This document shows positions 1,172 to 11,982 of a stretch of DNA of 64,000 nucleotides, piece by piece. The translations under genes and the position numbers were made by a program. The DNA is taken from NCBI RefSeq assembly GCF_026125785.1, contig NZ_JAHCKL010000003.1, positions 1 to 64,000 on the forward strand, given 5' to 3'. Source of the DNA: Hydrogenophaga sp. (GTDB taxonomy: Bacteria; Pseudomonadota; Gammaproteobacteria; Burkholderiales; Burkholderiaceae_C). Within the stretch, counting starts at the first letter, position 1. Each line of letters starts with the position of its first letter. The notes below the pieces were generated by a model. It was given only the letters and a program-made list of their open reading frames with translations, searched no databases and had not been told where the DNA came from.

Positions 1172-3166
1172 TCAGCGGTAAAGCACCTCCGGCAGCCACA
1201 GACCAATCTGCGGGAACATGTACAGCAGCACGATGGCCAGGATCTGGATGCCCATGAAAGGCAGCATGCCGGCGAAGATCTGGTTCAGCGTGACGTGCTT
1301 GGGGGCCACGCCCTTGAGGTAGAACGCGCTCATGGCCACCGGTGGGCTGAGGAACGCGGTCTGCAGGTTCAGGGCCACCAGCAGTCCGAAGAACAGTGGA
1401 TCGACACCGAAGTTGTCCAGCAGCGGGATGAAGATGGGCATGAAGATCACGATGATCTCGGTCCATTCCAGAGGCCAGCCCAGGATGAAGATGATGACCT
1501 GGCTCAGGATCAGGAACTCCGTCTTGCTCAGGTTCATGCCCAGCACCCACTCCTCCACCAGGGCCTGACCGCCCAGCAGCGCGAAAGCGGCTGAGAAGAT
1601 GGCCGACCCGACGAACAGCCAGCACACCATGGCGCTGGTCTTGGCGGTGAGGAAGACGCTTTCCTTGACCACGTCGACGGTCAACTGCCGGTAGGCCGCG
1701 GCCAGCAGGAACCCGCCGAGCGCACCCACGGCCGCCGCTTCGGTGGGGGTGGCCAGGCCGAACACGATGGAGCCCAGCACCGCCAGGATCAGCACCAGCA
1801 GCGGAAAGAAGCTGGAGAGCAGCATCTTGAACACTTCCAGGCGCGCATGGCTGAGCAGGGCGTAGAACAGCACCAGGCACAAGGCGCCAGCGCCCAGTCC
1901 GACCCAGTAGCCGATGGGGGCGGGCTGGGTCGTGGCCTCGGCGGTGGTTGCCGCGCCCTCGCCGGCCCCGGGTGGAAGGGCCACGCTGTCCGAGGCCGCC
2001 TCTTCGGTCTTCGCCGCGTCCGTCGGTTCGTCCGCTCCAGGCGGTTCGGCCACTTCACCTGCGGTCTCTTCGTCGCCAGGCGGTTCCGCCAGGCCCTCGG
2101 AGGCCTCATCCACGTCTTCCGGTTCGGCCAGTCCGCCTTCGTTGGATACCTCCTCGCGGGCGTCGTTGAGCGAGGTCAGCTCTGCGTAGGTCTCTTCCAC
2201 CTTGACCTGCGTCAGCCCCTGGTAGGTGCTCAGGGCCACCACGGCGAACAGTACCGCAGGCAGGGCCACGACGGCCAACTGGCGCAACATGTAGCCCGTG
2301 GGCACGTGGTGGTTCTTGCGCCCCTTGAGGGCACGCAGGAGGCTGGCTGGCGCCCAGGCTTCGCCCCGTGCACCAAGCTGCTGCAACCGCGGCGGCAGCG
2401 GGACCAGGCGCTGCTGCGCGCTCAGCGGTGGCGCCCAGGCCGGCTTGAGCTTGGCCATGAGGATCACGTAGACGATGTACAGGCCCGCCAGCATGATCCC
2501 GGGGAAAAAAGCGCCTGCGTACAACTGCACCACGGACACGCCAGCGGTGGCGCCGTAGACGATGAGCAGCACCGAGGGCGGTATCAGGATGCCCAGGCAG
2601 CCGCCGGCCGTGATGGCACCCGCGGTCAGACGCACGTCGTAGCCGGCGCGCAGCATCTGCGGCATGGCCAGCAGACCCATGAGAGTGACCACGGCGCCGA
2701 CGATGCCGGTGGCGGTGGCGAACACCGCGCAGGTGACCAGCGTGGCCACGGCCAACGATCCAGGGACGCGCGCCAGGGCCAGGTGCAGGCTGCGGAACAG
2801 CTTGTCGATCAGGTTGGCGCGCTCGACCAGGTAGCCCATGAACACGAACAGTGGAATCGAAATCAGCACGTCGTTGCCCATGACCGAGAAGGTGCGTTGC
2901 ACCATCAGGTCCAGTGTCTGCCTCACGGCACCGGCCGAAGTCTGTCCACCGGAGTGGTAGGCGAAGAAGGCGAACAGCATGCCCATGCCCATGAGGGTGA
3001 AGGCGGTGGGGAAACCCAGCATGATCGCGACCACCACCAGCGAGAGCATGAGCAGGCCATAGTGCCCATTGGTCATGGTGGGGGCGCTGGCCACCATCCA
3101 GACTGCGCCGGCCAGGATCAGCGCCATGAGACCGAAGCCGAACCAGAGTTCCTTGCGGACGGTCAT
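1172..3166 (-). CDS. dctM: TRAP transporter large permease subunit (DctM)
   Basis: This is the large membrane subunit of a tripartite ATP-independent periplasmic transporter, which drives solute import with an ion gradient. It has many hydrophobic segments, and the GGCLGILIPPS and ATPTEAAAVGALGG signatures of DctM are present. It is 664 residues long against about 430 for short family members. The excess is largely a hydrophilic, acidic, proline-rich insert at roughly residues 325-425, with degenerate AEPPG-type repeats between two membrane segments. An AAGGAGG ribosome site precedes the start. The start overlaps the dctQ stop by 4 bp (ATGA), indicating translational coupling. The substrate is unknown. 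Confidence 0.93.
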   Translation of the reverse strand: MTVRKELWFGFGLMALILAGAVWMVASAPTMTNGHYGLLMLSLVVVAIMLGFPTAFTLMGMGMLFAFFAYHSGGQTSAGAVRQTLDLMVQRTFSVMGNDVLISIPLFVFMGYLVERANLIDKLFRSLHLALARVPGSLAVATLVTCAVFATATGIVGAVVTLMGLLAMPQMLRAGYDVRLTAGAITAGGCLGILIPPSVLLIVYGATAGVSVVQLYAGAFFPGIMLAGLYIVYVILMAKLKPAWAPPLSAQQRLVPLPPRLQQLGARGEAWAPASLLRALKGRKNHHVPTGYMLRQLAVVALPAVLFAVVALSTYQGLTQVKVEETYAELTSLNDAREEVSNEGGLAEPEDVDEASEGLAEPPGDEETAGEVAEPPGADEPTDAAKTEEAASDSVALPPGAGEGAATTAEATTQPAPIGYWVGLGAGALCLVLFYALLSHARLEVFKMLLSSFFPLLVLILAVLGSIVFGLATPTEAAAVGALGGFLLAAAYRQLTVDVVKESVFLTAKTSAMVCWLFVGSAIFSAAFALLGGQALVEEWVLGMNLSKTEFLILSQVIIFILGWPLEWTEIIVIFMPIFIPLLDNFGVDPLFFGLLVALNLQTAFLSPPVAMSAFYLKGVAPKHVTLNQIFAGMLPFMGIQILAIVLLYMFPQIGLWLPEVLYR

Positions 3167-3783
3167 GGCTGGCCTCCTTTCCTGGTGATCAACTGGTCAA
3201 GGTCTTCAATGTCCTTGTCCTTGACGTGCACCATTTCCTTGAGTTTTTCGACATCGACCTCTTCCACGTCCTCCTCGCGCCTGGGCCATTGGCCTTCCCG
3301 CAGACAGAGCACGCAACGCACGATCTCCACCAGGCCCTGCAGCAGCAGCGCCGCACCGGCAACAGGCACGACAAACTTGAACGGGTAGATCGGCAGGGGG
3401 TCGGCGTTGAAGGTCTGCTCCCGGATCGCCAGCGACTCGTTGGCGAAGGTCCAGCCCGCCCAGGTCATGGCGATGATGCCGGGCAGGAAGAAAACCACGT
3501 AGAGCACCAGATCGATCGCGGCCTGGGTGCGTGGCCGAAAAAAGCCGTACAGCACGTCGCCACGCACATGGCCGTTCTTGGCCAGGGTGTAGGCGCCTGC
3601 CATCATGAACAGTACGCCATACAACATGATCTGGGCGTCGAGCACCCAACCGTGTGGCTTGTTCAGGGCATAGCGGGAAAACACTTCCCAACTGATCAGC
3701 AGCGTGAGCACGACCACGGACCAGGCGCAAACCTTGCCCACCCAGGTCGACAGGCCGTCGACCGCCAGGAGAAATTTCTGCAT
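3163..3783 (-). CDS. dctQ: TRAP transporter small permease subunit (DctQ)
   Basis: A 206-residue protein with about four membrane segments, the normal DctQ plan. Family-like features are ISWEVFSRYALNKPHGW in the first half and GHVRGDVLYGFF. The charged C-terminal tail (about 35 residues, rich in E, K and D) is cytoplasmic and unusually acidic/basic. DctQ scaffolds DctM in the membrane. The start at 3783 is chosen because the hydrophobic N-terminus begins there and GGGAG precedes it; an upstream in-frame extension would run through the dctP stop and hairpin. It sits between dctP and dctM. Confidence 0.9.
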   Translation of the reverse strand: MQKFLLAVDGLSTWVGKVCAWSVVVLTLLISWEVFSRYALNKPHGWVLDAQIMLYGVLFMMAGAYTLAKNGHVRGDVLYGFFRPRTQAAIDLVLYVVFFLPGIIAMTWAGWTFANESLAIREQTFNADPLPIYPFKFVVPVAGAALLLQGLVEIVRCVLCLREGQWPRREEDVEEVDVEKLKEMVHVKDKDIEDLDQLITRKGGQP

Positions 3784-5482: not shown

Positions 5483-6607
5483 ATGCAACCCATCCAGTTG
5501 TTCGACCCCGCTTCCAGCACCTATACCTATGTGCTGTTCGACCAGCAGAGCCGGGAGGCGGTCATCATCGATCCGGTGGACGAGCAGATCGAGCGCGATC
5601 TGGCCAAGCTGCAGGAGTACGGGCTCAAGCTGGTGTGGACCGTGGAGACCCACGCCCATGCCGACCACATCACCAGTGCGGGGCGGCTGGCCGAACTCGC
5701 AGGCGCCCGGACCGCGGCACCGCAGGGTTGCGGGATCGGGACCGCTGGTGTGCAACTGAAGCACGGCGATACGCTGAACTTCGGGGCAGAAAGCCTGCTC
5801 GCGTTGCACACGCCCGGCCACACGGCGGGCAGCATGAGCTTTGTCTGGCGCGACCACGTCTTCACCGGCGATACCCTGCTCATCAACGGCTGCGGCCGCA
5901 CAGACTTCCAGTCTGGCAGCGCGCGCGACCTCTACCGCAGCCTGACGCAGGTGCTGTTCAGCCTGCCCGACGGCACCACGGTCTGGCCGGGCCACGACTA
6001 CCAGGGGCGCACGCACTCCAGCATCGGTCAGGAAAAGGCCACCAATGCCCGGGTGGCGGGCAAGACCGAGGCCGAGTTCGTGGCCATCATGGACACCCTT
6101 CAATTGCCCAAGCCCAGGCGCATCGACGAAGCGGTACCCGCCAACCTCAGTTCGGGCCTGCGCCACGATGCCGATGGGGTTCTTCTGCTGCAGCCATCGC
6201 CCCCGACCGGCGCCCACCAGGGCAGCTACGCGGGTGACGTCTCGGCCGCGCTGGCCTGGCAGTGGGTGCAGTCCGGCGAGGCGGTGATGGTGGATGTGCG
6301 CACCGACGCGGAGCGCGAATGGGTCGGTTTCGTCCCCGGGGCGGTGGGTGTTGCCTGGAAGCAGTGGCCCGGCATGGCCATGAACCCGGATTTCGACCGC
6401 CAGATCCAGGCGGCGGCGCAAGGCCGCAAGCTGGTTCTGCTGTGCCGCAGCGGTGTGCGCTCGATCGCCGCCGCCAAACGGGCCACCGAACTCGGACTCG
6501 AGGCCTACAACATCCTGGAGGGCTTCGAAGGCGACCCGGACGCGAACGCCCAGCGGGGTCGTAAGGGCGGCTGGCGCTACCGCGGCATGCCCTGGCGGCA
6601 GAACTGA
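5483..6607 (+). CDS. Persulfide dioxygenase-rhodanese fusion
   Basis: A 374-residue two-domain enzyme. Residues 1-240 are an ETHE1-like metallo-beta-lactamase fold with the iron-binding THAHADH motif, HTPGHTAGS, FTGDTLLINGCGRTDF and PGHDY. Residues about 265-370 are a rhodanese domain with active-site loop CRSGVRS. Fusions of this type (PRF in Burkholderia, CstB in Staphylococcus) oxidise glutathione persulfide to sulfite and pass sulfane sulfur to form thiosulfate, detoxifying sulfide. The start at 5483 follows an AGGAG site. It lies 13 bp after the CsoR-family regulator and is presumably under its control. Confidence 0.92.
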   Translation: MQPIQLFDPASSTYTYVLFDQQSREAVIIDPVDEQIERDLAKLQEYGLKLVWTVETHAHADHITSAGRLAELAGARTAAPQGCGIGTAGVQLKHGDTLNFGAESLLALHTPGHTAGSMSFVWRDHVFTGDTLLINGCGRTDFQSGSARDLYRSLTQVLFSLPDGTTVWPGHDYQGRTHSSIGQEKATNARVAGKTEAEFVAIMDTLQLPKPRRIDEAVPANLSSGLRHDADGVLLLQPSPPTGAHQGSYAGDVSAALAWQWVQSGEAVMVDVRTDAEREWVGFVPGAVGVAWKQWPGMAMNPDFDRQIQAAAQGRKLVLLCRSGVRSIAAAKRATELGLEAYNILEGFEGDPDANAQRGRKGGWRYRGMPWRQN

Positions 6608-6694
6608 GACATATGTCACGGAGCGGCTGTCGCATTTTTGCGTCGCCGCTTATCGGACAAAACGACCGAAACTTGAGTCGAAAGGTTCACAGCC

Positions 6695-6711
6695 CCTGTC
6701 AACCCTGACAG
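6695..6711. promoter_or_regulatory. lux-box-like operator upstream of cqsA
   Basis: CCTGTCAACCCTGACAG is the core of a perfect 20-base inverted repeat (6694-6713: CCCTGTCA, 4-base spacer, TGACAGGG). It is 65 bp upstream of the autoinducer synthase start. It matches 15 of 17 bases of the site at 10483-10499 beside the LuxR-type gene and resembles Burkholderia lux boxes. Control by the local LuxR-type protein is inferred. Confidence 0.6.
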
Positions 6712-6713
6712 GG

Positions 6714-6743
6714 TCCGTGCAATTTTTCACGGATTTCTTTTTT
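6714..6743 (+). terminator. Terminator- or attenuator-like hairpin in the cqsA leader
   Basis: TCCGTG and CACGGA form a 6-bp stem around an 8-base T-rich loop, followed by TTTCTTTTTT. It sits between the palindromic operator and the cqsA ribosome site. It could end transcription from the persulfide dioxygenase gene or attenuate cqsA. The stem is short. Confidence 0.4.
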
Positions 6744-6776
6744 CAATGGGGTTTTCTATCCGGCAAGGAGAACTCC

Positions 6777-8039
6777 ATGGGAACGTTGGAACTGGTCAGG
6801 GAAGCCGCCTCGAAGGAGCCGACGCTGTCCGCCGCGTTGCGCCAACGCATCGAACGCGACTTCAAGCCGCGTTGGGATGGCCCTTGGGGAGGCAAGTTCG
6901 TGCTGCACGGTTCCGCGCCGGGGCCGAACGCCGTCCGCCTGGATGGCAACGACTACCTGGCCGTCACCGGGCACCCCGACATCGTCGCTGCCCAGGTCGA
7001 CGCCCTGACCCGCAGCAACGAGTTCGTTGTCCAGTCGGGTGTGTTTCTGCTCCAGCAGCACCCCACCCGGGCCCTGGAAATGGCGCTCGCCGACTGGGTG
7101 GGCAAGGAAGATGCCTTCCTGTGCCAGTCCGGTTACACCGCCAATGTGGGTCTGCTGCAGTCGATTGCCGACGCCAACACGCCGGTGTACCTGGACACCC
7201 AGGCCCACGCCTCCCTCTGGGAAGGCGCCCATGCGGCGCGGGCGCCGGCCTTTGCCTTCCGGCACAACGACCCGGTTCATCTCGACAAGATGATGACCAA
7301 GAACGGCCCGGGCGTGGTGGTGGTGGATTCCGTCTACAGCACCACGGGCTCGGTCTGCCCGTTGGAAGAAATGATCGAGGTCGTGGAAAAGCACGGGGCG
7401 ATGATCCTGGTGGACGAGTCGCACTCCCTGGGCACCCATGGGCCGTCAGGCGGAGGCCTCTGCGCTGAGCTGGGACTCACACACCGCGTGCATTTCATTT
7501 CGGCGAGCCTGGCCAAGTCTGTTGCCGGTCGTGCGGGCTTCTTCACCGCGCCTGCCAGCATGCGGTACTACATCCTGAGCACCAGCTTCCCCAACATCTT
7601 CAGCTCCTGCCTGCTGCCCAATGAGATCGCGGGTCTGCGCGCCACCGTCGAGGTGCTGCGCAAGGCCGATGCGGAACGGGAGCGCCTCAAGGCGATCACC
7701 CGTCGCGTGCGCAAGACCCTCAGCGGCCTGGGTTATCCCATTCACCACGGGACCGAGCAGATCATTGCCCTGGAAGCGGGCACCGAGCCCGATACCATGC
7801 GCCTGCGCGACGAACTGGAAGCCAGGGGCGTGTTTGGTGCCATCTTCTGCGCGCCGGCCACGAGCAGCAAGCGTGCGCTGGTGCGCCTGACGCTCAATGC
7901 GGCCCTGACCGAGGCGGAGTTGCTTCACCTGGAGGCGGTGGCGCGCGAGATCGCACCCATCGTCAAGCCCTGGGATTGGCCATGCGCCCGCCGTGCGCGC
8001 GTCCAGGCGGGCAGCGCTCTGGAGCTTGAGGCCGCCTGA
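6777..8039 (+). CDS. cqsA: Alpha-hydroxyketone autoinducer synthase (CqsA/LqsA type)
   Basis: A 420-residue fold-type I PLP enzyme of the alpha-oxoamine synthase family. CqsA and LqsA join an acyl-CoA to an amino donor to make alpha-aminoketone/alpha-hydroxyketone signals. The PLP lysine lies in SASLAKSVAGRAG, the aspartate in VDESHSLGTHG, and FRHNDPVHLDKMM matches the CqsA-type form of the helix following the substrate pocket. AAGGAG stands 7 bases before the start. What separates it from biotin (BioF) or haem (HemA) synthases is the context: it is followed by a convergent response regulator and a CqsS-like kinase, and no bio or hem gene is near. The exact signal cannot be read from sequence. 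Confidence 0.85.
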   Translation: MGTLELVREAASKEPTLSAALRQRIERDFKPRWDGPWGGKFVLHGSAPGPNAVRLDGNDYLAVTGHPDIVAAQVDALTRSNEFVVQSGVFLLQQHPTRALEMALADWVGKEDAFLCQSGYTANVGLLQSIADANTPVYLDTQAHASLWEGAHAARAPAFAFRHNDPVHLDKMMTKNGPGVVVVDSVYSTTGSVCPLEEMIEVVEKHGAMILVDESHSLGTHGPSGGGLCAELGLTHRVHFISASLAKSVAGRAGFFTAPASMRYYILSTSFPNIFSSCLLPNEIAGLRATVEVLRKADAERERLKAITRRVRKTLSGLGYPIHHGTEQIIALEAGTEPDTMRLRDELEARGVFGAIFCAPATSSKRALVRLTLNAALTEAELLHLEAVAREIAPIVKPWDWPCARRARVQAGSALELEAA

Positions 8040-8060
8040 GCGGCCTGGGATCGGCAACCG

Positions 8061-9047
8061 TCAGGCGTCGTGCACCTGACGGCCACCCTGGGCTTCCAGG
8101 AAGTGCCGGTAGGGGTAGATGGGTTGTGGCAGATCGTCCGCGCCCAGGGTGAACACGGCCGCGGTGAGCACGCCATCATCCCCGATGGGGAAAGAGACTG
8201 CGGTGCGTACCGGGCCGCGCAAACCCATCTGCTGATGCAGCTCCACGGCCGCCAGCCGCTGTCCGGCACGGATGGCCCTTACCGTGTCAAATCCCAGGCC
8301 GGCGGAGCCGGCAAGTTCAGCCAGGTCCGGGAGGCTGGACGTGGGTTCGAGTTGCAGCCAGTGGCATTGGCCACCTGAATCCAGGCCGATCAGGCCGAAG
8401 GGTTCCCCCAGCACCACGTATTCCACCCAGTGCTGCTCGGTGTAGGCGCGCAGGGCCTGGGCCACCGACGGTATCTGCAGCATGGACTGTTGGGCCGGGT
8501 GCAGGGCGGCGCGCCACAGGGTGTTCAGCCGTGGGTGCGGCGTTTGCGACAGCTTGCGCAAGACGCCGAGCAGGTGGCGGGTGATGTCGGTGGTCTGCTT
8601 GGGTACGAACTGGTCGATCAGCCCATTGTTGAAAGCCTGGATCGCGATCTGCTCATCGGCCTGGCCGGTGAGCAGGACCCGCGAGCCGGGCCAGTCCAGC
8701 AGGGTGTTGAGCACCTTGAGCCCGTCTGTGCCGGGCATGGCGTAGTCCACCACGCAGGTCTGGGCCAGCTCGTAGCGGGATGCATTGATGGCCCAGTAGC
8801 GCAGCACCTGGGGCAGCAGGGGCTGCCCTTGCCGCCAGCGTTCGATCATCTGCAACTGGGTCATCGCATCGGCTTCCCAGCGGGCAGGCTCGTTCTGCAT
8901 GCGGGTGAAGAAGCCCGACGGGCGCGAGTAAAGCTCCACCTGCCAGTGGGCCGGTATCACCATGCCCAGCATCTCCAGGTAGTCGGTGTCGTCGTCCAGG
9001 AACAGGATGCTGCCTGGGCGGTGGAAGAGGGATATCGTCAGTGCCAT
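8061..9047 (-). CDS. lqsR: LqsR-like response regulator
   Basis: A 328-residue response regulator without a recognisable DNA-binding domain. The acidic pair is in ILFLDDDTDYLEM and the likely phosphoacceptor Asp in CVVDYAMPGTDGL near residue 108. This is about 50 residues later than in a standard receiver because of an insert (approximately residues 40-95). The switch lysine is in FVPKQTT. The C-terminal 160 residues form an unassigned output region. This plan resembles LqsR of Legionella, which sits between LqsA and LqsS. An ATG at 9047 is preferred over an upstream TTG. The stop of the kinase gene is 7 bp upstream, so the two are cotranscribed. Confidence 0.75.
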   Translation of the reverse strand: MALTISLFHRPGSILFLDDDTDYLEMLGMVIPAHWQVELYSRPSGFFTRMQNEPARWEADAMTQLQMIERWRQGQPLLPQVLRYWAINASRYELAQTCVVDYAMPGTDGLKVLNTLLDWPGSRVLLTGQADEQIAIQAFNNGLIDQFVPKQTTDITRHLLGVLRKLSQTPHPRLNTLWRAALHPAQQSMLQIPSVAQALRAYTEQHWVEYVVLGEPFGLIGLDSGGQCHWLQLEPTSSLPDLAELAGSAGLGFDTVRAIRAGQRLAAVELHQQMGLRGPVRTAVSFPIGDDGVLTAAVFTLGADDLPQPIYPYRHFLEAQGGRQVHDA

Positions 9048-9054
9048 GTCGTCT

Positions 9055-10359
9055 TCAGCCTTGCGCAACGGCGGTCGGGTCGGCGGGGTTGTTCAGCGGC
9101 AGATCGATCATGAAGACCGCTCCGAGTCCGGGTTCGGAATGCACGCTGAGCCGGCCATGGGCGGCCTCCACCACGTTTTTGCAGAAGGTCAGTCCCAGGC
9201 CGTTGCCCGCGCCGGCCTGGGTGGAGAAGAAGGGTTCGAAGATGCGTTGCTGTTGCTCGTGGGTGATGCCTATGCCATCGTCGGACACCGCGATGCGGCC
9301 TTTGCCATGGTGGATGCCCACATCCACCCTGAGGTCGCCCGGGCTGGGCGCGTTGCTCGCGGCAGCCAGGGCATGCAAGGCATTTTTCAGCAGATTGGTC
9401 AGAACCTGGGCAAACAGGGGGCGTGACGCCAGGAAACAGAAGTCGTGCTGAATGTGGACCTGCACGCAGTCGCGCTCCCGCGAGGAGCGGTAGGGGTACT
9501 GACTCACCACCTCCTGCACGAGTTCAGCGGCCATGATCGTCGACTGCTCCCGAGGCAGTCGCATGAGTTGGGCGTTCGAGATCTGGGTGTCGATCTGCCG
9601 GTTCATGCTGCGCACCAGGTTCTGCAGGCGGGTGGCCAGTTCCTCCAGCTTCTTGCGCTTGGCCTCCGGGACCTCGTGCTGAACCAGGTTGCGCAGCACG
9701 TCGCCCATGAGGTTGACGGTGGCCAGCGGCGTGCGCAGCTCATGCGCCATCACGCCCATGGTGCTCAAGGTGTTGAGCAGCCGCGCACGGCGCAGGTTGG
9801 CGCTGGAGAAGCCCAGCATCAAGCCCATGATCCAGGCAAAGCCGATCACCACCACATTGGCCATGGGTTCCTCGAAGGGGTGGGTGGTACCGCCATTGAT
9901 CTCGGCGGTGAGCCAACCCGCGGTGCCGCCAGTGATCAGGCCGATGGTGGCCAGCCGCCAGTCGGTGGCGTGGTAGTAGATCAGGATCATGATGGACACG
10001 CTGGCCAGCCACACGGTGTTGCCACCATTCATCCAGTACATCCAGGTGAAGAACCAGGGCAGCTGTATCCAGGTGGCGGCGGTGAACAGCCGGCCCGCCT
10101 CGGTGGACGTGGGGTCGCGGGTGGTCTTGGGCAACACATAGATCAGGGCCAGCAGCGCCATGAACAGGCGAGCCCAGGGGTTCTCGTAAGGCTGGGGCAG
10201 CAGGAAGGCCCAGGTGGCATAGATGAGGGCATGCCCGCAGAAGGTGAAAACACCAATCCACAACAGGCGGCCCCGGGAAGGGTGCAGAATAGGCTCTATG
10301 GGGGCGTGGACGACTTCGTCCAGCAGCCAACGCCAGAGTCGGGCTCTGGCGCTGACCAT
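9055..10359 (-). CDS. cqsS: CqsS/LqsS-like membrane sensor histidine kinase
   Basis: A 434-residue sensor kinase. The first ~190 residues hold about six membrane helices including WAFLLPQPYENPWARL, which matches the signature near the second helix of Vibrio CqsS. The DHp box is MGVMAHELRTPLATV (phospho-His), followed by an N box LTNLLKNALHAL, G1 VSDDGIGI and G2 GAGNGLGLTF. There is no attached receiver, as in LqsS and unlike hybrid CqsS. The start is uncertain: 10359 gives an N-terminus of CqsS-like length, while 10446 would add 29 residues; neither has a strong ribosome site. It is divergent from the LuxR-type gene and upstream of the LqsR-like gene. Confidence 0.83.
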   Translation of the reverse strand: MVSARARLWRWLLDEVVHAPIEPILHPSRGRLLWIGVFTFCGHALIYATWAFLLPQPYENPWARLFMALLALIYVLPKTTRDPTSTEAGRLFTAATWIQLPWFFTWMYWMNGGNTVWLASVSIMILIYYHATDWRLATIGLITGGTAGWLTAEINGGTTHPFEEPMANVVVIGFAWIMGLMLGFSSANLRRARLLNTLSTMGVMAHELRTPLATVNLMGDVLRNLVQHEVPEAKRKKLEELATRLQNLVRSMNRQIDTQISNAQLMRLPREQSTIMAAELVQEVVSQYPYRSSRERDCVQVHIQHDFCFLASRPLFAQVLTNLLKNALHALAAASNAPSPGDLRVDVGIHHGKGRIAVSDDGIGITHEQQQRIFEPFFSTQAGAGNGLGLTFCKNVVEAAHGRLSVHSEPGLGAVFMIDLPLNNPADPTAVAQG

Positions 10360-10452
10360 CCACAACCGGTCCAAAGACAATATGCACTCCTTCGTTCGCC
10401 GGACACCTGCCGCGCTTGACTCCAACAATCCTGACCCAGTTGGCATTGTCTA

Positions 10453-10469
10453 TGCAACAGGGTGTTGCA
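10453..10469. promoter_or_regulatory. Second inverted repeat in the cqsS/luxR divergent region
   Basis: TGCAACA and TGTTGCA form a perfect 7-bp inverted repeat around GGG. Its centre lies 30 bp (about three helical turns) from the centre of the lux-box-like site at 10483-10499. It could be a second operator controlling the kinase and/or LuxR-type gene. The binding protein is unknown. Confidence 0.4.
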
Positions 10470-10473
10470 AGCC

Positions 10474-11142
10474 ATGACGTTGCCTGTCAACTTTGACAGT
10501 ATTGGCCTGGATGGCATTCTGGCCGACTGGCTGTGTGCTTTGCGGGAGCAAGGCGTGGAAGCAGTGCTGGTATTGGGCCCCGATCCTGTGGGAGGCCGTG
10601 ACCAGCGCGAGGTGTTGGCGGTGCATCCGCCCCGGCTGCTGGGACCGGGGCAAGCGCTGGCTGAAAGTCCCGACTTCGGGGCGGGCTGGCGTGACAGCGA
10701 CGCACCGCTGGTTGCCTGGCAGGATATTTCCAAATCGGCTTTCGAGCAATCGAGTCGCTGGCGTCGGCTGTGGCTGGCCCACGGCTACCAGACCCTGGTG
10801 CGCGTGGCATTCAGCCTGCCTGCCGGCCGGGCGTTCGAGTGCTTCATGTTCAGCCCTAGGGCGTTTGCCGACCGCTCCGAGGCGGCTGTGCTGGCTTGGT
10901 CCGCTTTCAATGTCTGGCCGATGCTGCGGAGGTCCATTGCCGAGCAGCGCGTGGTCCTGAGCCCGCGCGAACTCGAAAGCCTGAACCTGGCTTTCGAGGG
11001 ACTGACCGCCCGCGAGACGGCGCAGCGCATGGATTGTTCCGAGCGCACGGTGAACTACCACTTGGCCAACGCCATGGCCAAGCTGCAGACCGACAACAAG
11101 TTGGCGGCTGTCCAGCGGGCCTGCTGGATTGGACTGATCTGA
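10474..11142 (+). CDS. LuxR-family transcriptional regulator
   Basis: A 222-residue regulator with a C-terminal LuxR/FixJ helix-turn-helix (LSPRELESLNLAFEGLTARE through ERTVNYHLANAMAKL, residues ~160-215). The N-terminal 150 residues have the size and WRRLWLAHGYQTLVR pattern of a diverged autoinducer-binding domain, but no acyl-homoserine lactone synthase gene is present, so it would be a LuxR solo. ATG at 10474 is preferred; an in-frame GTG at 10462 is possible. Its own first codons (4-9) contain the palindrome shared with the cqsA promoter. It probably belongs to the quorum circuit; that link is inferred from the shared site. Confidence 0.82.
   Translation: MTLPVNFDSIGLDGILADWLCALREQGVEAVLVLGPDPVGGRDQREVLAVHPPRLLGPGQALAESPDFGAGWRDSDAPLVAWQDISKSAFEQSSRWRRLWLAHGYQTLVRVAFSLPAGRAFECFMFSPRAFADRSEAAVLAWSAFNVWPMLRRSIAEQRVVLSPRELESLNLAFEGLTARETAQRMDCSERTVNYHLANAMAKLQTDNKLAAVQRACWIGLI
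10483..10499. promoter_or_regulatory. lux-box-like operator at the luxR start
   Basis: CCTGTCAACTTTGACAG, with 6-bp arms CTGTCA/TGACAG, is nearly the same as the site upstream of cqsA. It overlaps codons 4-9 of the LuxR-type gene and lies about 125 bp upstream of the kinase start on the other strand. It could repress luxR and activate the kinase gene. Function is inferred. Confidence 0.55.
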
Positions 11143-11208
11143 GCCAGGGCCTGGCTGACATGTTGCGATGCAGCATTCCCGCTTGACCCGCGTGGTGATA
11201 ATCCACGC

Positions 11209-11982
11209 ATGACTTTTCTGGCCCTGGACGTAGGGAACACCCGACTCAAGTGGGCCCTGTACGACGCACCCCATGTCGGGGCATCGCTGCTCGCCAGCGG
11301 TGCCCAGTTCCTAGAGAACATCGAATCCCTGGAAGAGGGCGATTGGCAGGCGCTGCCGGCGCCCGACCGGGTGCTCGGCTGCGTGGTTGCTGGGGATGCC
11401 GTCAAGCGCCGTGTCGAAGAACAGCTCGAGATGTGGGACGTGAACCCGCAGTGGGTCGTGTCCAGCAGTGCCGAAGCCGGATTGGTCAACGGCTACGACC
11501 ACCCGGCCCGTCTGGGTTCGGACCGTTGGGTTGCCATGATCGGTGCTCGCCAGCGCCTGCTGGCGCGGGGGCAGGTCCGTCCCTGCATCGTGGTCATGGT
11601 GGGTACGGCGGTCACCGTCGAGGCCATCGACTCCCAGGGCCGTTTTCTCGGCGGCATCATTCTGCCGGGCCACGGCATCATGTTGCGTGCCCTGGAATCG
11701 GGCACGGCAGGTCTGCACGTTCCTACCGGCGATGTGCGCGACTTTCCCACCAACACCAGCGACGCGCTCACCAGCGGCGGGACCTTCGCGATCGCGGGCG
11801 CGGTCGACCGCATGGTGAACAACCTGCGCCGCCACTGCGGCGAGGAGCCGGTTTGCATCATGACCGGTGGTGCAGGCTGGAAGATGGCACCGAGCATGAC
11901 CACTTCCGTGGAGCTGGTGGAGAGCCTGATCTTTGACGGACTGCTGGAGATCGCCGATCGCCGTCTGACCAGGGTAGTCTGA
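11209..11982 (+). CDS. coaX: Type III pantothenate kinase
   Basis: A 257-residue CoaX, the ATP-dependent pantothenate kinase that starts coenzyme A synthesis. It belongs to the ASKHA fold: [14 protein letters not shown] is the phosphate-1 motif, [12 protein letters not shown] and LGGIILPG are conserved active-site segments, and MTGGAGW is the adenosine loop. In beta-proteobacteria it commonly follows birA; here it stands alone. There is no ribosome site before the ATG. Instead GATAAT ends 7 bases upstream within a GCGTGG/CCACGC hairpin, which would fit a leaderless transcript. Confidence 0.95.

Follow-up and report, generated by a model that had tools for sequence, protein, structure and literature searches.

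How a LuxR-type protein takes part in an alpha-hydroxyketone (AHK) quorum-sensing circuit is the question raised by four genes lying together in the window, i.e., the whole 64-kb stretch of DNA analyzed here. Its source is a Hydrogenophaga-like Comamonadaceae genome (4.17 Mb, 93.8% complete), whose closest named relatives were Hydrogenophaga. Sequence comparisons confirmed that an AHK synthase, an LqsR-type regulator, a CqsS/LqsS-type kinase and a LuxR-type protein are found together in this genome, and the locus almost certainly carries an AHK-type quorum-sensing circuit. The place of LuxR in that circuit was given a testable answer, namely a predicted lux box before the synthase gene and a second one inside luxR. 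The four genes are:

6777..8039, + strand: LqsA/CqsA/JqsA-type AHK autoinducer synthase, 420 aa (NF005526; CqsA structures)
8061..9047, - strand, alternative TTG start at 9068: LqsR-family response regulator, 328 aa (profile and fold match to 6sy9)
9055..10446, - strand, start uncertain: CqsS/LqsS-type membrane sensor histidine kinase (HATPase_c, HisKA, PQPYEN)
10474..11142, + strand: LuxR-type DNA-binding protein, 222 aa (GerE helix-turn-helix (HTH); model like LuxR regulators of the acyl-homoserine lactone (AHL) type)

Four genes inherited together

When the synthase was compared with family models, it scored 540.5 bits against NCBIfam NF005526 ("alpha-hydroxyketone-type quorum-sensing autoinducer synthase"; cut-off 428) and only 217.9 bits against BioF, far below that model's cut-off of 426; it was likewise far below the cut-off for KBL. 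The closest solved structures were CqsA (322 bits), with serine palmitoyltransferase as runner-up (156 bits). The enzyme is thus of CqsA type, as originally predicted, and the check proposed at that time, CqsA/LqsA against BioF/KBL, was decided by these models. A lysine occupied the place of the pyridoxal phosphate-binding lysine of CqsA when the alignment was read by eye. Nine residues of the CqsA acyl pocket are named in the accessible part of PMC3285556; six of them were kept (again by eye), and the places of H30, V32 and F257 held F, L and S.

The regulator matched Legionella LqsR (6sy9) in a profile search with an E value of 1.2e-25 (next best 1.1e-05). Foldseek also ranked 6sy9 first (E 2e-10), but with a TM-score of 0.30 on a low-confidence model (pLDDT 65, pTM 0.48). 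A C-terminal domain follows the receiver, so that of the "receiver-only protein of LqsR plan" described from the sequence, the LqsR affiliation stood and the receiver-only plan did not. HATPase_c and HisKA domains were found by Pfam in the kinase, whose PQPYEN motif and further invariant positions were common to 18 other kinases. The expected CqsS-like signature was borne out, as the PQPYEN block was also present in the kinase adjoining the Vibrio campbellii synthase, with 35 of 159 sensor residues identical. Together, the synthase, regulator and kinase matches support a set of the Lqs/Cqs/Jqs type.

The fourth protein carried a GerE HTH (Pfam, E 6.8e-15). Its start is more likely ATG 10474 than GTG 10462, because 222 codons run from there in all 22 named relatives, one of which (L008) has ACA at the codon matching the ATG.

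The named-genome scan gave 27 loci, and 22 of them had the same four genes in the same order and orientation (three of the genes aligned only partially in one of the 22, L023); the other five loci held enzymes 25-27% identical, without the other three genes. In ten non-Hydrogenophaga loci (L013-L022), luxR was better conserved (69-73% identity) than the kinase (47-52%) or the regulator (40-50%). Two samples of genomes were then compared, 220 from the family and 300 from the order. Among the 220, the synthase was found in 29 genomes, a luxR ortholog (E <1e-60) in 30, and both in 26; two further genomes had weak luxR matches (G129, 35% identity over residues 74-226; G275, HTH only). Among the 300, the synthase was found in 17 genomes, 15 of them outside the family and one (G291) below cut-off, and the luxR search returned family members and two HTH-only matches, with no ortholog outside the family. 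In each genome, only the highest-ranking hits of a preliminary pass were scored (at most 13 or 9 in the luxR search), so a weak ortholog may have been overlooked. These counts indicate that the LuxR-type protein is a fixed fourth part of the set in this family, in agreement with the original view that it belongs to the cluster, and that it was probably added within the family, since it was missing from the outside-family genomes of the order sample. The gene order itself had been thought unusual. However, the synthase faced the regulator and kinase in 9 of the 18 outside-family loci that served as the comparison set for gene order and for the exact box, and order was dropped as a novelty.

Predicted lux boxes at the synthase and luxR genes

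Two copies of a palindrome lie in the cluster:

6696..6711 (with CCC/GGG flanks, 6693-6714), no strand: lux-box palindrome CTGTCAACCCTGACAG upstream of the synthase (exact copy; conservation)
10484..10499, no strand: second lux-box palindrome CTGTCAACTTTGACAG, luxR codons 4-9 (exact copy; conservation; codon constraint)

The pattern CTGTCA-N4-TGACAG occurred exactly twice in the 4.17-Mb genome, both times in the window, at the synthase and at the luxR start; a control pattern (the palindrome pattern read backwards) was absent from the genome. In 64 kb, chance alone could supply two matches when as many as two mismatches are allowed; the boxes carry weight because both are exact, placed at the synthase and luxR genes, and conserved. 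Conservation was assessed in 46 luxR-bearing loci, 45 of them testable upstream of the synthase (L100 was too short). An exact box preceded the synthase in 35 and a box with one mismatch in another 6 (41 of 45). By contrast, the best match before the three luxR-less family synthases had 4-5 mismatches, and none of the 18 loci outside the family had an exact box.

The inner box, 10 nt past the luxR ATG, was exact in 14 loci and had one mismatch in 26 (40 of 46), compared with no box of up to one mismatch at any of 29,394 further positions within these luxR genes. When synonymous conservation was ranked over 168 columns, codons 4, 7 and 8 (CCT, TTT, GAC) came first, third and fourth, with codons 9, 6 and 5 at ranks 20, 55 and 151. 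Within luxR, codon constraint is thus strongest at the inner box, although the box encodes part of residues 1-9, which had low model confidence and were predicted to be disordered. The luxR-only loci varied in the encoded residues (PVKSDS, PVRTAS) and kept the box at 0-1 mismatches; L087, L099 and L102 retained it with different residues. Separately, ATTGT(C) recurred in many relatives some 25-35 nt ahead of the luxR ATG (about 10444-10450 in the window) and may be part of the luxR promoter.

Classical lux boxes at LuxR-controlled promoters follow the geometry CCTGT-N8-ACAGG. The palindromes had the same geometry, matching the 20-bp type, and the LuxR-type protein likely binds them.

Across 26 genomes that have both synthase and luxR, 34 exact boxes lay outside the cluster, vs 8 in 18 luxR-less genomes (four of these in G072); the control pattern occurred twice in total over all 49 genomes. 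We inspected all 34 sites, one of G220 and five of the eight luxR-less sites; the genes beside them were called by a codon-composition script and are leads only. Recurrent neighbors were genes for TpsB-type (ShlB/FhaC) outer-membrane transporters (L156, L168, L175, L160), preceded by an exact box in three genera, and for a phosphonate-type periplasmic binding protein, also in three genera. Of the four transporters, two were identified by Pfam, as was one of the three binding proteins; the others were identified by BLAST. The TpsB-type transporters are a possible shared target. Since the genome studied here has only the two cluster copies, the targets of its circuit may be mainly the cluster's own genes, or else genes with weaker sites. 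One relative (L079, 4441) had an exact box within its kinase gene.

The leader of the synthase gene

Between the upstream box and the synthase start codon, two further elements were predicted:

6742..6747, + strand: TTCAAT element, 30 nt past the box end (T[TC][CT]AAT at conserved spacing)
6746..6778, + strand: leader hairpin, 6746-6757 pairing with 6767-6778 (folding z-scores, pair counts)

The hairpin stem includes the Shine-Dalgarno GGAG and the first two bases, A and U, of the synthase start codon. When the 38 nt ending at the synthase ATG were folded and scored against dinucleotide shuffles, leaders of luxR-bearing loci had a mean z of -2.86, with 32 of 44 below -2. The same script applied to luxR starts and regulator starts (duplicates still included in both sets) gave means of 0.01, with 1 of 43 and 1 of 49 below -2. 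No hairpin was seen at luxR-less synthases, either within the family (0 of 3) or outside it (mean z -0.12, 0 of 16; 16 of the 18 loci could be scored). Pairing was also counted in a sequence-only alignment of 40 leaders, whose rows are not all in one register. Paired cells made up 76.5% (68.7% in shuffles), double changes numbered 52 (31 in shuffles) and covariation was 0.339 (0.221 in shuffles; 0.09-0.19 for slid partners); none of 500 shuffles was as high on any of the three counts. A hairpin over the ribosome-binding site thus probably controls translation of the synthase. An Rfam scan of 6000-11500 found no family at the synthase leader and one chance-level match elsewhere, and identity with an Rfam RNA thermometer or riboswitch was set aside, none having matched.

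In 41 loci T[TC][CT]AAT stood between box and hairpin, 30-32 nt past the box; it was absent from three further loci with a box-like site, and other boxes in the genomes showed no TTCAAT hexamer. Classical lux boxes are centered at -42.5. If the same holds here, the transcript would start within TTCAAT and the hairpin would lead it, with no -10 element in support.

LqsR/LuxR pairs and the proposed circuit

Four family genomes (G114, G128, G220, G233) gave no synthase hit within the search threshold. Their luxR loci held an LqsR-type gene (46-49% identity) side by side with luxR and divergent from it, and no kinase match. The receiver Asp motif was retained in these four and in a distant pair in G129. 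One locus (L084) has coaX after luxR as in the window, and another (L102) has transporter and hydrolase genes before luxR as in the window; because of these common neighbors, at least these two look like the same site minus synthase and kinase. The distant pair (L106, in G129) consists of an LqsR-type gene (32%) beside a LuxR-type gene (38%) on the same strand, with no synthase. Outside the family, the LqsR and kinase genes of L204 have next to them a LuxR-type gene of a different kind (2657-3403); hhalign matched its product to the alignment of the family's LuxR-type proteins with a probability of 97, the N-terminal part being poorly aligned. Retention of the pair without synthase and kinase, together with L204, is the main ground, an indirect one, for placing LuxR downstream of LqsR, which we consider an evenly poised proposition.

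On balance we slightly favor an AHK circuit of Lqs/Jqs type in which LqsR acts on DNA through a dedicated LuxR-type protein that has the synthase gene as its target; we infer both the signal chemistry and the direction of regulation. The synthase would make an AHK-like signal, which the kinase would sense, setting the phosphorylation of the LqsR-type regulator. The latter, which has no known DNA-binding domain, would in turn regulate the LuxR-type protein, probably through direct contact. This protein would then bind the lux boxes and activate the synthase gene in a positive feedback, limit its own gene through the inner box, and in some relatives reach a few more genes. The hairpin over the ribosome-binding site would restrain synthase translation until some factor opened it.

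Several results weigh against this circuit. Three family synthases lacked a luxR ortholog (G068, G152, G187), although the G152 genome has a completeness of 55% and the contig is cut off. Four loci with luxR (L077, L079, L093, L105) had upstream boxes with 2-4 mismatches, and G072, with no luxR ortholog, has four exact boxes. The LqsR/LuxR pairs could reflect neighboring genes moving together rather than protein contact. Twelve of the 44 luxR-bearing leaders failed to reach a z below -2 (two owing to the choice of start or window: an internal ATG in L098, a longer hairpin in L103), and RNAalifold gave no consensus hairpin on the same leader alignment. A promoter scan of the region found no sigma-70 promoter; for this reason, and for having either T or C in second position, TTCAAT is doubtful as an ordinary -10 element. 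As to G072 (L187-L190), it also lacks the synthase, and several of its boxes adjoin genes for proteins with signal-peptide-like starts.

Other arrangements of the same parts were weighed. Tentatively, the system may be a hybrid in which the LqsR-type regulator works through or with a LuxR-fold protein that possibly binds AHK, with the synthase under both lux box and hairpin. It is unlikely that the LuxR-type protein is a cytosolic receptor of AHK or of an amino-ketone precursor, the signal being read twice, by kinase and by LuxR. Its full-length model (pLDDT 80, pTM 0.73) did match AHL-binding regulators (TraR, QscR, RhlR, SdiA, LasR, CviR) at ranks 1-32 of a PDB search, and a LuxI-type synthase (PF00765) had no match in this genome and exceeded the cut-off in only 4 of 60 genomes of the genus. 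However, the TM-scores were only 0.31-0.52, Pfam reported no autoinducer-binding domain even at E values up to 10, so the pocket need not be kept, and four genomes hold luxR without the synthase, making self-made AHK unnecessary there. An AHL system was itself rejected, with no LuxI in this genome.

Also unlikely is that the LuxR-type protein is an independent regulator answering another signal and gating the synthase gene, LqsR having a different output such as a GGDEF-like domain. Such a nucleotide-binding output domain, termed putative, is described for Legionella LqsR in the accessible parts of PMC10653808 and PMC11237717, and outside the family synthases do without this LuxR; against it, the LqsR/LuxR pair is retained without kinase and synthase. 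Finally, the palindrome before the synthase, with its flanks a near-perfect dyad around a 4-nt center, is most improbable as a terminator or RNA hairpin without a protein site: its arms are conserved as sequence around a variable center, and a second copy sits at a fixed luxR codon. No T run follows it (0-4 T in the first 8 nt, 41 loci), and on this ground a terminator was rejected.

The circuit we favor is close to several known systems. Jqs of Janthinobacterium/Duganella also clusters a beta-proteobacterial AHK-type synthase (JqsA), a kinase (JqsS) and an LqsR-type regulator (JqsR), with a palindrome common to regulated genes; in the accessible parts of PMC3566124 and PMC5080296, however, three genes are described, the motif is TTGA-N6/7-TCAA instead of CTGTCA-N4-TGACAG, and Jqs is not said to include a LuxR protein. 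Legionella pneumophila Lqs shares the LqsR-family regulator (6sy9), synthase and kinase, but the accessible part of PMC11237717 describes no LuxR-type partner and places the transcription factor LvbR in the network. Vibrio Cqs shares the synthase family and the kinase sensor signature, whereas it has no LqsR and signals via LuxU/LuxO (PMC3376566, in part). AHL-type LuxR regulators (TraR, QscR, RhlR, SdiA) resemble the protein here in HTH, predicted overall fold and lux-box geometry; on the side of difference, this genome has no LuxI partner, and a sequence search found no autoinducer-binding domain in the protein.

The Lqs gene set, lqsR in Hydrogenophaga (from a published survey) and the convergent order, frequent in related bacteria, were already known. 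Lqs-type clusters in beta-proteobacteria are reported in PMC3566124, PMC3376566 and PMC10653808. As far as their accessible text goes, PMC3376566 lists lqsA/lqsS homologues in Polaromonas, Burkholderia xenovorans and Ralstonia eutropha, and PMC10653808, a survey of lqs/phcX in Proteobacteria, finds lqs clusters widespread in beta-proteobacteria, names Hydrogenophaga, notes phc genes near lqs there and observes that in Ralstonia LqsR can outlast lqsA and lqsS; the word LuxR is absent from its text. What appears to be new is the fixed luxR fourth part, the two predicted lux boxes, the LqsR/LuxR pair without kinase and the hairpin over the synthase ribosome-binding site. Searches of open-licence literature on AHK, cqsA or LqsR with LuxR, lux box, Comamonadaceae, Hydrogenophaga or RNA thermometer showed no report of this LuxR, box or hairpin.

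The output domain through which LqsR-family regulators would change gene expression is called putative in the accessible parts of PMC10653808 and PMC11237717. Linkage of an LqsR-family regulator to a LuxR-type protein whose site has been mapped would allow a direct test of that output step in harmless freshwater bacteria. If the leader hairpin acts as predicted, it would be an added translational gate on AHK synthesis, and the arrangement as a whole suggests how an Lqs-type system may switch genes on.

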